From assembly GCA_017459605.1 (NCBI GenBank), contig JAFUCQ010000025.1, forward strand, positions 1-56,607: a stretch of DNA of 56,607 bases, written 5' to 3'. Positions 28,238 to 50,963 of this stretch are shown piece by piece. The notes beneath the pieces are model-generated. The model saw only the letters and a program-made list of their open reading frames with translations, was not told the DNA's origin and ran no database searches. How positions within the stretch are numbered: position 1 is the stretch's first letter; each line of letters opens with the position of its first letter. The DNA comes from Atopobiaceae bacterium. GTDB taxonomy: Bacteria > Actinomycetota > Coriobacteriia > Coriobacteriales > Atopobiaceae. A program made the translations under genes and the position numbers.

Positions 28238-29629
28238 ATGAAACTTGATAAAAGAGGCATTGGCCTTATTGCGGGAATCCTTGTAGGTGCACTCATTTGG
28301 TTTGCGCCACTCAACAATCTTGCTGAAATCTCTGCCCAAGGCCAGCAGTGCCTTGCACTCACACTCATGACCGTTGTTTTCTGGGCAACTGGTGTTGCTC
28401 AACCTGCGTTTATCAGTGCAATTTATCTTGCATTGCTGGTGCTTTTCCAAGTAGCTGAAACGTCGGTCATATTCCGGTCGTGGTCGACCATGAACATGTG
28501 GATGGTCATTGGTGCGTACCTGATTGCAGCTGGCGTTAAAGGGTCAGGTTTGGGCGAGCGCATAGCTTATTGGTTCTCAATCAAGTTCATTCACAACTGG
28601 CGCTCACTCGTTATTTGGATTTTTATCATCTCCATCGTTTTGTCCATTCTGATCCCGCACCCCTTCCCGCGCTGCTTCATGCTCTTGGCGGTTATGATGG
28701 TTGTTGCAGACGCAGCCAAGATGAGCGAGGCAGACAAGGTCAAGGTTGGCTTCTTGATTTTTGCAGCAGCAGCTCCTACTGGCATGTTCCTCATTACGGG
28801 TGACTCCACCCTTGGTCCGCTTGTTGCTTCTTACTGCGATGGCGGAGAGCTTTCGTACTTTGCATGGATTATCGACATGATTGTTCCTATGGCAGTTGCT
28901 ACTATCGGTACGCTCTTGCTGGGTCTGTTCCTCTTCAAGCCTGAGAAAGAGATTGTTATTGACAAGGCAGAAGTTCAGGCTAAGGCAGATGAGCTTGGTC
29001 CCGTATCCATTAAAGAAAAGCGCGTTATCGTTTGGATTGTCATTGCAGTTGCCCTTTGGCTCACGGGTTCAATGACGGGTCTATCCATTGGCTTTGTAAC
29101 CCTGCTGATTGGTGCTCTCATGGCGCTTCCCTACATTGGTGAGGTCTTGACGCCGGGTGACTGGAATACCGTTCCTATGAATACCCTCGTCTTCTTGACG
29201 GCGGCTATGGCTATTGGCACCGTTGGTGGCGAGACGGGCATGAATCAGTGGATTGCAGACGTTGTTCTTCCCAGTACGGTTCCCGACAATATCTTTGTCT
29301 TGACCCTGCTTATCACCGCTATCACCGTCGTTATTCACATGTTTATGGGATCGGTAATGGCTGTGTTGGGCATCTGTATCCCGGCATTTTTGACCTTTAC
29401 CGCAGGCACCGATATCAGCCCCACTGCTATTGCATTCATCGTCTTCTCGGCCATCAACATTCACTATATCCTGCCCTTCCATAACTTGGCAATTCTCGTT
29501 GGTGTTGGCAAAGATGGTGGCGGATACAGTGCGAGTGAGTGCATCAAGATGGGCGTGCCACTGACCGTGCTTGTGTTCATTGTCACGATGGTTGAGGCTC
29601 TGTGGTTCCATATCTTGGGTCTGATGTAA
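28238..29629 (+). CDS. DASS/SLC13-family anion transporter
   Basis: The 463-residue protein has about 11-12 helices with the DASS layout. It includes FWATGVAQPAFISAIYLALL, the hairpin region HPFPRCFMLLAVMMV, ITGDSTLGPLVASY, and the C-terminal MFMGSVMAVLGICIPAFL with NIHYILPFHNLAILVG. DASS carriers import di- and tricarboxylates or sulfate with sodium. Here the gene sits between two aromatic-acid decarboxylase units, so uptake of the decarboxylase substrate is a reasonable inference. Start chosen at 28238 after GAGGGG; the frame extends upstream to 28145 without a good ribosome site. Confidence 0.85.
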   Translation: MKLDKRGIGLIAGILVGALIWFAPLNNLAEISAQGQQCLALTLMTVVFWATGVAQPAFISAIYLALLVLFQVAETSVIFRSWSTMNMWMVIGAYLIAAGVKGSGLGERIAYWFSIKFIHNWRSLVIWIFIISIVLSILIPHPFPRCFMLLAVMMVVADAAKMSEADKVKVGFLIFAAAAPTGMFLITGDSTLGPLVASYCDGGELSYFAWIIDMIVPMAVATIGTLLLGLFLFKPEKEIVIDKAEVQAKADELGPVSIKEKRVIVWIVIAVALWLTGSMTGLSIGFVTLLIGALMALPYIGEVLTPGDWNTVPMNTLVFLTAAMAIGTVGGETGMNQWIADVVLPSTVPDNIFVLTLLITAITVVIHMFMGSVMAVLGICIPAFLTFTAGTDISPTAIAFIVFSAINIHYILPFHNLAILVGVGKDGGGYSASECIKMGVPLTVLVFIVTMVEALWFHILGLM

Positions 29630-44727: not shown

Positions 44728-44872
44728 CGTGTCCTCCCTTGTTCTTTTGTGCGTATGTTGCTTATTCTACGCTTGCAGGACAATTGCGGTGTCTGCATAA
44801 ACAAAATCACTGACAGCAGAAACTGAGCAACTCACAAACGTGCAAGTTGCTGAAGGATGCGACGGTTTGAAT

Positions 44873-45100
44873 GGTCGACTCTGCATACCACTAGGTACAC
44901 AGAGTCTGGGGTTGTGGGAGCAAAACCCGGAATAATGGTCGACTCTGCATACCACTAGGTACACAGAGTTTGGGGTTACAGGGGCAGCATCCGGAATAAT
45001 GGTCGACTCTGCATACCACTAGGTACACAGAGTTTGGGGTTACAGGGGCAGCATCCGAAACAATGGCCGACTCTGTATACCGCTAGGTACACACAGTCTC
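44873..45100. repeat. 64-bp tandem repeat carrying a palindrome, four units
   Basis: Units start at 44873, 44937, 45001 and 45065, exactly 64 bases apart. Each holds the imperfect palindrome ACTCTGCATACC-N4-GGTACACAGAGT, and the last copy is diverged. No gene is present in the 560-base gap 44728-45287. Confidence 0.93.
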
Positions 45101-45168: not shown

Positions 45169-45238
45169 CGAGCAGTAACATTGCAGGTTTGGTAAGGTCA
45201 AAACGAGTAGTAACATTGCAGCTTTGGTAAGGTCGAAA
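45169..45238. repeat. 35-bp direct tandem duplication upstream of acpS
   Basis: Two 35-bp units (CGAGYAGTAACATTGCAGST onward) lie at 45169 and 45204, with a truncated third start at 45239, just upstream of acpS. Confidence 0.9.
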
Positions 45239-45287
45239 CGAGCAGCGCACTCAGCAGGATCGACATGAAAAGTAAGGATGAGACAGC

Positions 45288-46030: not shown

Positions 46031-46156
46031 TAATTAGTAGCAATTAGTAGTAATTAGTAGCATCGTGTTACGACACACATTAGTAGCACCGTGTTACGAC
46101 ATACATTAGTAACACCGTGTTACGACATATATTAATAGCACCGCGTTTTGACACGC
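46031..46156. repeat. 10-bp and 26-bp tandem repeats upstream of the RiPP precursor
   Basis: Three TAATTAGTAG-like units at 46031-46060 lead into four 26-bp units starting at 46053, 46079, 46105 and 46131 (core ATTAGTAGCACCGTGTTACG). The array ends about 28 bases before the RiPP precursor start, so it occupies the likely promoter/leader region. The rest of 45672-46030 shows no gene. Confidence 0.92.
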
Positions 46157-46183: not shown

Positions 46184-46381
46184 ATGAATTTTGACGAATT
46201 GACAGAAGAGCAGAAGGCCAGAGCACGAGCAGCTCAGAGTCCCGAGGAGATTCTGGAGCTTGCTCGCGAAGAGGGTTACGAGCTTTCCGAGGGCGAGTTA
46301 GAAGCGGTCTCTGGCGGCTGGTGTGGCAGCGATTGTAGCAACCACTGCGCTCATGACTGCCGTATACCTTTTGGTAGGTAG
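46184..46381 (+). CDS. Nif11-leader RiPP precursor with four-cysteine core
   Basis: The 65-residue peptide has a leader (1-45) of Nif11-like type: acidic N-terminus, AQSPEEILELAREEGYELSE and the cleavage end LEAVSGG. The core (46-65) begins Trp-Cys and has cysteines at 47, 51, 55 and 59, each separated by exactly three residues (GSD, SNH, AHD), then a basic tail RIPFGR. A radical SAM/SPASM gene starts 2 bases after the stop, so thioether crosslinking of the cysteines to nearby residues (sactipeptide or ranthipeptide type) is inferred. The ATG follows AGGGGAAAG. No exporter or leader peptidase is seen. Confidence 0.88.
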   Translation: MNFDELTEEQKARARAAQSPEEILELAREEGYELSEGELEAVSGGWCGSDCSNHCAHDCRIPFGR

Positions 46382-46383
46382 TA

Positions 46384-47721
46384 GTGTTACCAGAAGAGCT
46401 TCAGGTTAGTCGCACGGCGGGCGAAGCAGGTTGGCATGTGTCTCGCTACAACCTTATGGCGACAGTTCCTGACACCAAGAACGTAGCGATTGTGAACCTG
46501 TTTAAGGGCAATTGCGCAGAGTACACACCACTTGAGATGTACCTTCTCTCGGTTGTCGAGGATCTCGATGAGCACCATCCCATTATCGAGAGATTCGCTC
46601 GGCGAGGCATCATAGCCAACTTTGATGAGCGTGCGGCGCTTGAGTCTCTGGGACGTGCAGCGTGTGCGATGGCGCATGGAATTGGACTGACAATATGTCC
46701 CACCATGGGCTGCAACTTTGATTGTCCGTATTGCTTCGAGGACCACTTTGCAGGAAAGATGAGTCAAGAGGTGCAAGACGATGTCGTAGCACTTGCAGCT
46801 CGCATGCTTGATGCATCGGGTGCTCGTGATATGTATGTCACGTGGTTTGGTGGGGAACCATTGCTTGCCCCCGAAATCATCGAGTCGCTCTCGGAACGGC
46901 TTGTGGCGTTGGTGGAGGGGCGTGGCGGGAAGTATGTTGCGACTATCATCACGAACGGATACCTGCTCACGCAGGAAATTGCCGATATGCTCGGGCGATG
47001 CAAGGTGACCAAAGCTCAGGTTACGGTCGATGGTATTGGGGCTACCCACGATGCAACACGACGACTGGCAGGTGGTGGAGCTACCTTCGAGCGCATTGTC
47101 TCCAACCTGCGCGACTTGAAGCTTCCCTTCGAAGTGGATGTTCGCCACAACGTCCATGAAGGCAACCGTTCAGAAATGGATGAGCTGGAGGCATTCATCA
47201 AACAGCTCGCTTTCGAATCTGGCAACGACCTATCCTACTATCCCGCACCAGTTACGGGTAGCTCGGTGGCAGATGAGCGCGGTGAACAAGTGGGTCTTCT
47301 GTGCGGTAGTGATACAAGTGAGGTGGGTATTCGTCAGGATGCTGGGCATTTTCGTGTAGGTCAAGGCCATTTTTGCGGCGCTCATACGATGTGGGGTCTT
47401 GGCATTGACGAGCGCGGCAACTTGCAAAAGTGCTGGGAGGCGGTTGACAAGCCCGAGATAAGCTTTGGTACAGCTCACGACTGGAACCCTGCTGACCCTC
47501 TGGCGAGTGCAAGTCGTCCGGACAACCTGACCATGTATCTGAATACTGCCTGTCCCGTACCAGACGATGAGTGCCAAGAGTGCGTGTGGCTGCCACATTG
47601 TGCTGGTGGGTGTCCACACAGGCGCCTGTTTTCAGAGCGTGCGTGCGTTGTCTTCAAGGACAATCCAGAAGCCTACGTTTTGGCGTTGCATGCACGAATC
47701 GGCCGCGAGAAAAGACCGTGA
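46384..47721 (+). CDS. Radical SAM/SPASM peptide maturase
   Basis: The 445-residue enzyme has an N-terminal region (1-100) of the kind seen in peptide-modifying enzymes, the radical SAM cluster CNFDCPYC (Cys 110, 114, 117), the SAM motif WFGGEP at 155-160 and a SPASM domain with Cys 331, 350, 390, 397, 400, 406, 410 and 421 for auxiliary Fe-S clusters. Family members form sulfur-to-carbon thioethers in RiPPs. The start is GTG at 46384, two bases after the precursor stop, consistent with coupled translation and strongly linking the two. Substrate is inferred from adjacency. Confidence 0.9.
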   Translation: MLPEELQVSRTAGEAGWHVSRYNLMATVPDTKNVAIVNLFKGNCAEYTPLEMYLLSVVEDLDEHHPIIERFARRGIIANFDERAALESLGRAACAMAHGIGLTICPTMGCNFDCPYCFEDHFAGKMSQEVQDDVVALAARMLDASGARDMYVTWFGGEPLLAPEIIESLSERLVALVEGRGGKYVATIITNGYLLTQEIADMLGRCKVTKAQVTVDGIGATHDATRRLAGGGATFERIVSNLRDLKLPFEVDVRHNVHEGNRSEMDELEAFIKQLAFESGNDLSYYPAPVTGSSVADERGEQVGLLCGSDTSEVGIRQDAGHFRVGQGHFCGAHTMWGLGIDERGNLQKCWEAVDKPEISFGTAHDWNPADPLASASRPDNLTMYLNTACPVPDDECQECVWLPHCAGGCPHRRLFSERACVVFKDNPEAYVLALHARIGREKRP

Positions 47722-47787
47722 ACTGAAGGCTGGAGCTCAAGGACTCGAGGGATGTTGGCTTTGCAGGATGATGTGGGAGGTGCTTTT

Positions 47788-47973
47788 ATGGCTCGTCGGT
47801 CGGACAAGAAACGCATGACCCTCTCGGAGCACCGAGCGCTTCGCGCTCAGGCCGCCGAGGAGACCAAGCAGTGCGAAGACGAGCACACCCGCCACAACCA
47901 GAGCCTCAAGGAGCTCAGGTTGGTAACGTGTACCTGCCCTACCTGCATGAAGCTGCGAGCGCAACGTCGCTAG
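47788..47973 (+). CDS. Small basic protein downstream of the maturase
   Basis: The 61-residue protein is rich in Arg, Lys, Glu and Gln and probably helical, ending with VTCTCPTCMKLRAQRR, whose C-x-C-x2-C could bind metal. It has a strong GGGAGGTG site before the ATG and lies 66 bases after the maturase, so cotranscription is likely. I do not recognise the family. It could be an accessory protein, an immunity factor or unrelated. Confidence 0.6.
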   Translation: MARRSDKKRMTLSEHRALRAQAAEETKQCEDEHTRHNQSLKELRLVTCTCPTCMKLRAQRR

Positions 47974-48970: not shown

Positions 48971-50281
48971 ATGAAATTGCTGAGCTTGACGGTTGGAGGG
49001 TTTCGCAATGTTGCAGAGACCACAATTGAGCTTGGTGGCATTACAGCTTTCGTGTCGCCCAATAACTATGGAAAGTCTAATCTGCTTAAGGCAATTGAAT
49101 TCGCAACAATCTTCATCAATGAAAGCCCAAAGATTCGCAGCGTGATGATGGGATATGCAGGTGGTATTCCTCTCGTTCCAGAGCTCGCAAAAGAGGATTT
49201 CCGGTTTCAGGTTGAATTCGAGGACCCAGACCTTGGTGAATACCGCTTTGTACGGTATGGGTTTTCGTTTTCCTGGCGCCGTGATGATGGAACCGGTCAG
49301 GTTATAACCGACGAGACGATCGAGATAAATCCACAGCGAGGTGGCAGATGGACCAACTACTTGCGTAGAGACAAGGGTAAATACAAGAAGAGCCATGACA
49401 CCCGATCGTTTCGTACGATTCAGCTTGACAGCAACCAGCTTGCTATTGACGTGCTAACCGCCATCGAGGACATTGATATCAACCCCGCTATCAAGATAAT
49501 CAAAGAAATAGGGTTTATGCTTTGCGCCTCCATCGACGCATCTTCGAGGTTCCGCCCAACGCCGCTTGAGATAAAGGACGACGCTGAGGGCGAGAAAATG
49601 GTCGCATTCGATGACGAAGATCTCCCCAGGGCAATGTATCGCCTGAAGGTTAACCATAAAGAACGTTATGACGACCTCCTTTCCGCACTCTTCACCCTAT
49701 TTCCAGAGTTCGAGGACATATCCGTCAATCCATATGAGCTCAAGAAAGAAGAGTATGATGTCCTCGAAAAGACGCTGAAGACTCCTGACGGAGAAGAAGA
49801 TGTGCCGTTTAGAATTCGTGACGAGCTTTATCGCATGACAGTTCGCAGCTCTAACCTCAATCAGACCGTCAACATAAACATGATGTCGATGGGCACACAG
49901 CGCATTGTTTGGCTTCTCACCAATGTCATTATTGCCGAGGCATACGACGCCCAATGCATAGGAATCGAGGAAGTTGAGACCAGCATCCATCCCAAGATGC
50001 TCGGAGAGCTGTTAGAGCTACTAGACGAGAATATCGGCGAAACCTCGCTGCTCATCACGAGCCACTCACCCTTCCTCATCCAGTACCTTAAGCCCCAGCA
50101 GATTTACATCGGCGAGCCGAGCGAGAATGGCATCGCAAGGTTCAAGAGGATACGCGAAGACGAGGTGGAGAAGGTCAACTCGTTTGCGCACGACAGGGGT
50201 CTCGGTTTTGGCGAGTATCTGTTCGAACTAATGTCCTCCGACGACGGCTCCGCAATACTGGCAAGCGTCCTTGAGGGGTAG
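48971..50281 (+). CDS. AAA/ABC-like ATPase of a putative two-gene defence module
   Basis: The 436-residue protein starts LTVGGFRNVAETTIELGGITAFVSPNNYGKSNLLKAI, with a Walker A of the OLD/AAA_15 type. A long insert follows, then MSMGTQRIVWLLT, Walker B-like CIGIEEVETSIHP and the H-motif LITSHSPFLIQYL. Such ATPases occur in AbiL/RloA, PARIS AriA and OLD/Gabija-like defence systems. The partner gene starts 1 base after the stop. Ligand and function are inferred. GGAGG precedes the ATG. Confidence 0.8.
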   Translation: MKLLSLTVGGFRNVAETTIELGGITAFVSPNNYGKSNLLKAIEFATIFINESPKIRSVMMGYAGGIPLVPELAKEDFRFQVEFEDPDLGEYRFVRYGFSFSWRRDDGTGQVITDETIEINPQRGGRWTNYLRRDKGKYKKSHDTRSFRTIQLDSNQLAIDVLTAIEDIDINPAIKIIKEIGFMLCASIDASSRFRPTPLEIKDDAEGEKMVAFDDEDLPRAMYRLKVNHKERYDDLLSALFTLFPEFEDISVNPYELKKEEYDVLEKTLKTPDGEEDVPFRIRDELYRMTVRSSNLNQTVNINMMSMGTQRIVWLLTNVIIAEAYDAQCIGIEEVETSIHPKMLGELLELLDENIGETSLLITSHSPFLIQYLKPQQIYIGEPSENGIARFKRIREDEVEKVNSFAHDRGLGFGEYLFELMSSDDGSAILASVLEG

Positions 50282-50282
50282 C

Positions 50283-50963
50283 ATGGCCGAAGAGAAAACG
50301 TACGATATCGGCGAGGCCCTGATAGTCGAGGGTAGCACGGAGAAAGTCTTCTATTCGGAGTTCATCGAGAACCGTGCACTCGCAAACGGTGTTTCGATTG
50401 CCAAGGTGGCAGACGGTGACGGTACCAACTACGTAGCGACAAGACACGATGGTACCTCAGTTCTTGTCAAGCTCAACAACGTCGGCACTATCACCCAGAT
50501 GACCAACTCCGCTGAGTGGTTTCATCGATCGTGTGCCTCTAGGTATGCTGACATCCCCTGGACCGTCTTCCTTGGCTACGATACCGACGCATACAATAGT
50601 AACATCACTAAGTTCCATGAGGGAGATTGGGCTCGCTTGAGGAATGACATCGAGCCGAAGGCCGTAGCAATCATTGACTTGGCTGCCAAGGCTGACATCG
50701 AAGACATTATGCTATGCAACTACACAGGTGTCCTCAGCTTTCTCGGCTTGCCAAGCAACACAGAAATGCCCTACGGGCGCAAGGGCAAGGCAAGGATGAA
50801 GAAGCTCCACAAGATGGTTGCCCTCAACAAGCCATACCATGAAGGAGATAAGGCTCGTCCTCTTGTGAGGGCACTCGATATGGATGAGATTCTGCGTACG
50901 GCACCTATCCCTCTAGGCATGTTGGAAGCAACAATCGTTGGGTCCTCAGAGAATCGAATGTAA
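50283..50963 (+). CDS. TOPRIM-like partner protein of the ATPase
   Basis: The 226-residue protein has a TOPRIM-like glutamate motif ALIVEGSTEKVFYSEFI near the N-terminus and an aspartate motif FLGYDTDAYN at about residues 97-106. The C-terminal region resembles RloB/DUF4435-like or OLD nuclease halves (DIEDIMLCNYTGVL). With the adjoining ATPase it would form an ATP-gated nuclease or sensor-effector pair, as in PARIS or AbiL. The start at 50283 is set by TTGAGGGG within the end of the ATPase gene. The class cannot be assigned by eye. Confidence 0.7.
   Translation: MAEEKTYDIGEALIVEGSTEKVFYSEFIENRALANGVSIAKVADGDGTNYVATRHDGTSVLVKLNNVGTITQMTNSAEWFHRSCASRYADIPWTVFLGYDTDAYNSNITKFHEGDWARLRNDIEPKAVAIIDLAAKADIEDIMLCNYTGVLSFLGLPSNTEMPYGRKGKARMKKLHKMVALNKPYHEGDKARPLVRALDMDEILRTAPIPLGMLEATIVGSSENRM

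Follow-up and report, generated by a model that had tools for sequence, protein, structure and literature searches.

The window analysed here, a 56,607-nt stretch of DNA from an Atopobiaceae bacterium, carries a two-gene module in which a Nif11-leader RiPP precursor is followed by a radical SAM/SPASM peptide maturase (Table 1). We favor, by a modest balance of the evidence, the reading that this Nif11/radical SAM module makes a peptide with tandem Cys-X2-Asp/Glu thioether rings that leaves the cell through an NHLM-type exporter.

Table 1. Positions of the precursor, the maturase and neighboring features in the window
Feature	Position	Strand	Details
26-bp tandem repeat, 3.9 copies	46053..46154	.	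ends ~30 bp before precursor start
Precursor ORF	46184-46381	+	65 aa, ATG start, AAGGGGAAAG upstream
Nif11-type leader of precursor	46184..46318	+	45 aa, end ...EAVSGG; PF07862 28.3 bits
Precursor core WCGSDCSNHCAHDCRIPFGR and stop codon	46319..46381	+	ladder homologues L001, L025
Radical SAM/SPASM peptide maturase	46384-47721	+	445 aa, GTG start; profiles, predicted fold
Small CxCxxC ORF	47752-47973		downstream of maturase; ORF present

By domain test, the first gene is a Nif11-leader RiPP precursor, as an earlier note on this DNA had claimed: its score exceeds the PF07862 (Nif11) cut-off of 23.8 bits, and the NCBIfam model TIGR03798 gives 24.4 bits, below its cut-off of 32.3. A double-Gly site precedes a 20-aa core, here and in relatives, and the core consists of C-x-x-[D/H] units at C47, C51 and C55 and a C-x-x-P-F-x-R tail from C59. 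The same note described an exact CX3CX3CX3C core, which we confirm. Four cysteines in a 20-residue core would fall into this pattern by chance in 8/4845 placements (0.17%); a six-frame count over the whole window yields two such stretches, the second at 28393 in a frame without a recognised gene, and the pattern is absent in 19/20 mononucleotide shuffles of the window. Searching for homologues that keep CX3CX3CX3C next to the maturase, the check that the note had proposed, found two, L001 (WCVNDCPNDCRSDCRVPFGR) and L025 (WCATDCPNDCKSECGVPYMR), in two other gut genomes. The spacing is nonetheless not the defining feature that it was taken for: it is one among many core layouts served by the enzyme family, a minority type, and we dropped CX3C periodicity as a family signature on finding the four-Cys ladder kept in only three precursors. 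A phage origin of the precursor was set aside on the absence of a match in phage records.

The second gene is a radical SAM/SPASM maturase by domain and motif, and here too the earlier claim stands. PF04055 (Radical_SAM) matches at 65.7 bits and TIGR04085 (SPASM) at 41.5 bits (cut-off 27), the CX3CX2C cluster cysteines (C110, C114 and C117) are invariant in relatives, and the SPASM cysteines (C331, C350, C397, C400, C406, C410 and C421) are invariant or nearly so. The AlphaFold2 model (44-sequence alignment, pLDDT 90) predicts a beta3-alpha3, RRE-like N-terminus at approximately residues 23-95. Its closest solved fold is the SCIFF thioether maturase CteB (5wgg), which it matches over nearly its full length with a TM of 0.64, yet at only 16% identity. 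SCIFF precursors are not known to carry a Nif11 leader. The enzyme scores against the Clo7bot, PapB, QhpD-type and SCIFF maturase models, and none of the curated maturase models run on it reaches its cut-off. The best-scoring named models, both aligned nearly full length, are TIGR04463 (maturases of Cys-rich RiPPs; 202.7 of 525 bits) and Clo7bot (TIGR04334; 171.3 of 600), far under their cut-offs. Lower scores come from CefB (NF038107; 137.7 of 600), PapB (NF047865; 99.7 of 340) and the CXXX-repeat maturase model TIGR04115 (34.6 of 350). Because no such model is matched at its cut-off, the chemistry cannot be read by homology.

The earlier note regarded acceptor residues as scarce, and this does not hold: the ladder is laid out as C-x-x-[D/E/H] repeats, with Asp or Glu at i+3 of most of its cysteines. 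Each of the first three cysteines of L001 and of L025 has D/E at +3 (three times each), whereas in the window core the second unit has His instead of Asp and the fourth Cys lacks an acidic residue after it. When we fixed the Cys positions in 109 non-redundant Nif11 cores and shuffled the remaining residues, D/E proved enriched at +2 from Cys (62 versus 39.8 expected, p<0.001) and at +3 (52 versus 39.0, p=0.0095), with no enrichment at +1 or +4; leaving out cores with window-like tails weakens the +3 signal (45 versus 36.0, p=0.05). The cores have recurring features: an early Trp, units of the form C-x-x-[D/E], and C-x-x-P-[FY]-x-R as the tail. Acidic residues are known beta/gamma-carbon acceptors. 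PapB, whose products are Cys-Asp thioethers at the beta-carbon, tolerates spacings of n=0-6 in Cys-Xn-Asp (PMC9413430), and this tolerance, taken with the +2/+3 enrichment, favors short Cys-to-acid thioether rings. Judged from residue patterns, Cys-to-Asp/Glu (ranthipeptide) links would fit the enrichment better than hairpin sactipeptides do, and the crosslinks probably fall within the ladder, as the earlier note had suggested. Acceptors probably vary across the family, because some of its cores (MMWGDVCVGVACKVCRGYKGCKVY) lack any acid following Cys.

In the mechanism that we propose, the RRE-like domain of the adjacent enzyme would bind the Nif11 leader, core residues would be oxidised by a 5'-deoxyadenosyl radical and the cysteines would close short thioether rings onto a side-chain carbon of the acidic residue at +3. 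The candidate pairs are C47-D50 and C55-D58, and C51 might be joined to N53/H54 or stay free. Such PapB-like (ranthipeptide) Cys-X2-Asp/Glu chemistry would produce a chain of tandem small rings, not a sactipeptide hairpin, and the leader would then be cleaved after GG and the peptide would leave through an NHLM-type C39 peptidase/ABC transporter. We infer that the system works like a ranthipeptide system and that its secreted product most likely has an antibacterial or signalling role.

The exporter gene lies on another contig of the same genome, whose one C39 peptidase falls within the TIGR03796 equivalog (920.9 bits, cut-off 853.3) and adjoins a TIGR03794-like protein and an ECF sigma factor. 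By its profile match, it is an NHLM-type C39 peptidase/ABC exporter, completing the proposed pathway. The ECF sigma factor (L241, 4055-4600, on contig C115) lies directly beside the exporter and is a possible regulator. Elsewhere in the family, ABC1-like and ABC2-like genes immediately precede the precursor-maturase pair in L047, and some other family maturases have transporter or HlyD-like genes nearby.

The first alternative to tandem Cys-to-acid rings is a sactipeptide, in which the same enzyme would link Cys sulfur to alpha-carbons within the ladder or in the RIPFGR tail. Sactipeptide maturases share the radical SAM/SPASM superfamily, the structure search for the maturase also returned SkfB (6efn), and Cys stands three residues before Pro in 7/8 cores ending in P-[FY]-x-R, which makes the tail a possible acceptor for the last Cys. 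We nevertheless consider this outcome unlikely, as the best-fitting models and fold (Clo7bot, PapB and CteB) are not classical sactipeptide maturases, the RumMC-type sactipeptide maturase model gives merely 41.8 of 720 bits, and D/E is enriched downstream of Cys. Somewhat less likely again is modification of the conserved Trp near the core start, as a cyclophane or a Trp-Cys link, with the cysteines free, in disulfides or binding metal. Trp does fall in the first seven residues of 114/138 short cores and is enriched at -2 from Cys (30 versus 15.9), and zinc-ribbon-like cores stand behind some leaders; but the cyclophane maturase models score low on the enzyme (YhhB 58.6 of 445, FxsB 40.8 of 370), the Trp may be a mere recognition or cleavage-site residue, and the ladder cysteines have stayed invariant through saturated synonymous change.

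The pairing of the two genes, which the earlier note called firm, is borne out by their 2-bp gap and by comparison across relatives. A genome scan recovered 76 related loci, mainly from Atopobiaceae and Eggerthellaceae of ruminant guts, with a few from Clostridia and others. In the maturase tree, the window, L001, L025, L032, L047 and L004 form one clade (SH-aLRT 90), in which a Nif11 precursor adjoins the enzyme in 6/6 members, following it closely in L004 and preceding it in the other five; L001, L025, L032 and L047 keep the order seen in the window. The L032 and L047 cores are shortened ladders (WCGDCSSDGQLCGTPYLR, WCNDCSSDGQCGAPYWR and WCAMVCNDDTGRVPFGR), so the CX3C spacing is not fixed. 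An apparent maturase-precursor translational fusion in L047 was rejected, since it sits in another reading frame than the maturase. Between the window and L001, the core has a pS of 0.95 and a pN of 0.22, the leader a dN/dS of 0.09 and the maturase a pN of 0.12 with saturated synonymous sites, from which we conclude that precursor and maturase are both coding and under purifying selection.

It is quite improbable, in light of the 2-bp gap and of an order and core type common to four related loci, that the adjacency is incidental and that the neighboring maturase mainly serves other precursors of the genome, even though most family maturases lack an adjacent precursor and this genome holds other Nif11 peptides (contigs C35 and C73) and further family enzymes (C73 and C104). 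An unmodified Cys-rich metal-binding or disulfide peptide beside a dead or unrelated enzyme is very improbable: the Cys and His of the core could bind metal, but the radical SAM and SPASM cysteines are all intact and the enzyme is under strong purifying selection.

Beyond the window, the enzyme family is widespread among Coriobacteriia of ruminant guts, where the two components occur together. Of the 397 genomes surveyed in the order, 54 contain a close maturase (E<=1e-80), 74 contain precursors (E<=1e-4) and 53 contain both (Fisher 2e-47, in a test that ignores shared ancestry). A named isolate, Olsenella intestinalis KCTC 25379 (L038), also carries a family maturase. For most maturases in the tree, the same strand holds no Nif11 precursor within 600 bp, and one genome (G004, 84% complete) has 42 precursor matches with one family maturase and one C39 peptidase, which together suggest action in trans. 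A lanthipeptide route for this precursor-rich genome was set aside, as no LanC-like protein was found in it. In a second genome (G194, 98% complete), at least 21 precursors accompany one family maturase and one LanC-like protein; the window's genome has few Nif11 peptides, with three precursor-profile matches. The pattern suggests one enzyme with many substrates, as in prochlorosins, a picture that incomplete genomes and other radical SAM enzymes could alter. We therefore offer only tentatively the broader view that the window belongs to a large prochlorosin-like system of ruminant-gut Coriobacteriia, in which one radical SAM/SPASM enzyme of broad substrate range would work in trans, together with an NHLM exporter, on tens of Nif11 precursors with differing cores scattered over the genome. 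The outcome would be a combinatorial library of peptides with Cys-X1-2-Asp/Glu crosslinks, tandem small-ring ladders among them. In the literature searched, we found no described counterpart of such ladders.

Two side observations come from these genomes. Six loci of G004 (L201, L204, L208, L211, L218 and L221) have Nif11 leaders followed by zinc-ribbon-like cores (CPxCG...CxxCG), of which 14 distinct examples occur among the loci examined. A second maturase of the family in the window's genome (L243; G000:C73, 21189-23828) contains a TGA in frame; it adjoins a more distant radical SAM gene of the family and a Nif11-like peptide with a Cys-free core, VVPEIGGPGW.

Several known systems resemble this one in part. 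PapB/freyrasin-type ranthipeptides share tandem cysteines with a downstream acid and a radical SAM/SPASM maturase, whereas the window system has a Nif11 leader, places the acid at +3 (C-x-x-D) rather than at +4 (CX3D) and has a maturase that falls short of the PapB cut-off. Going by their names, the Cys-every-fifth (CefB) and CXXX-repeat (TIGR04115 and TIGR04118) families also combine radical SAM enzymes with regularly spaced cysteines; NCBIfam thus already has radical-SAM RiPP families named for CXXX repeats, and the window is not a member, its core giving no score with TIGR04118 and the L001 core 13.2 against a cut-off of 35. Prochlorosins, made by one ProcM, have in common with it the Nif11 leader, the GG site, highly varied cores and many precursors per enzyme (PMC10783134, PMC2887384), but the window system uses a radical SAM/SPASM enzyme in place of a lanthipeptide synthetase. 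Haft et al. 2010 (PMC2887384) described how Nif11 precursors had expanded by paralogy in cyanobacteria, and noted Nif11 peptides next to exporters in Eggerthella lenta. For rumen isolates, a rule-based survey that relied on the SCIFF model TIGR03973 reported that Actinomycetota had no ranthipeptides (PMC13289728), a result in keeping with current rules overlooking this group. Our search of the open literature found no relevant papers on TIGR04463, Clo7bot, geopeptides, Cys-every-fifth or CXXX-repeat peptides.

If the proposed chemistry is correct, a Nif11-leader branch would join the thioether-forming radical SAM RiPPs, bringing C-x-x-D as a new ring spacing and an architecture of rings in tandem, and prochlorosin-scale substrate promiscuity would be achieved via radical chemistry in gut bacteria. 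The natural cores of closely related enzymes could then serve as a ready-made substrate-scope set.

Around the pair, the small CxCxxC ORF had been counted as part of the system, and we dropped it as a partner because a homologue is absent from all 240 related loci (0/240); profile searches gave it no family match either. The 26-bp tandem repeat is a possible regulatory region; a search allowing up to 3 mismatches found no other copy of its unit in the genome, and scans around the pair for sigma-70-type promoters and terminators gave nothing above chance. Further tandem repeats, of 64 bp (3.6 copies, 44870-45097) and 35 bp (2.2 copies, 45169-45245), precede an acpS-like gene, and at 48971-50963 an AAA_15/OLD-like ATPase is followed by a weakly TOPRIM-like protein, in resemblance to defence ATPases (HEC-01A, AbiLi and AriA models). 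At L025, a 36-nt CRISPR-like repeat (GTTTTGGAGCAGTGACATCCTGACTGGTAATCAAAC) occurs three times over 174-209 and 1471-1572, and two of the copies, with 30 nt between them, lie shortly before the precursor.
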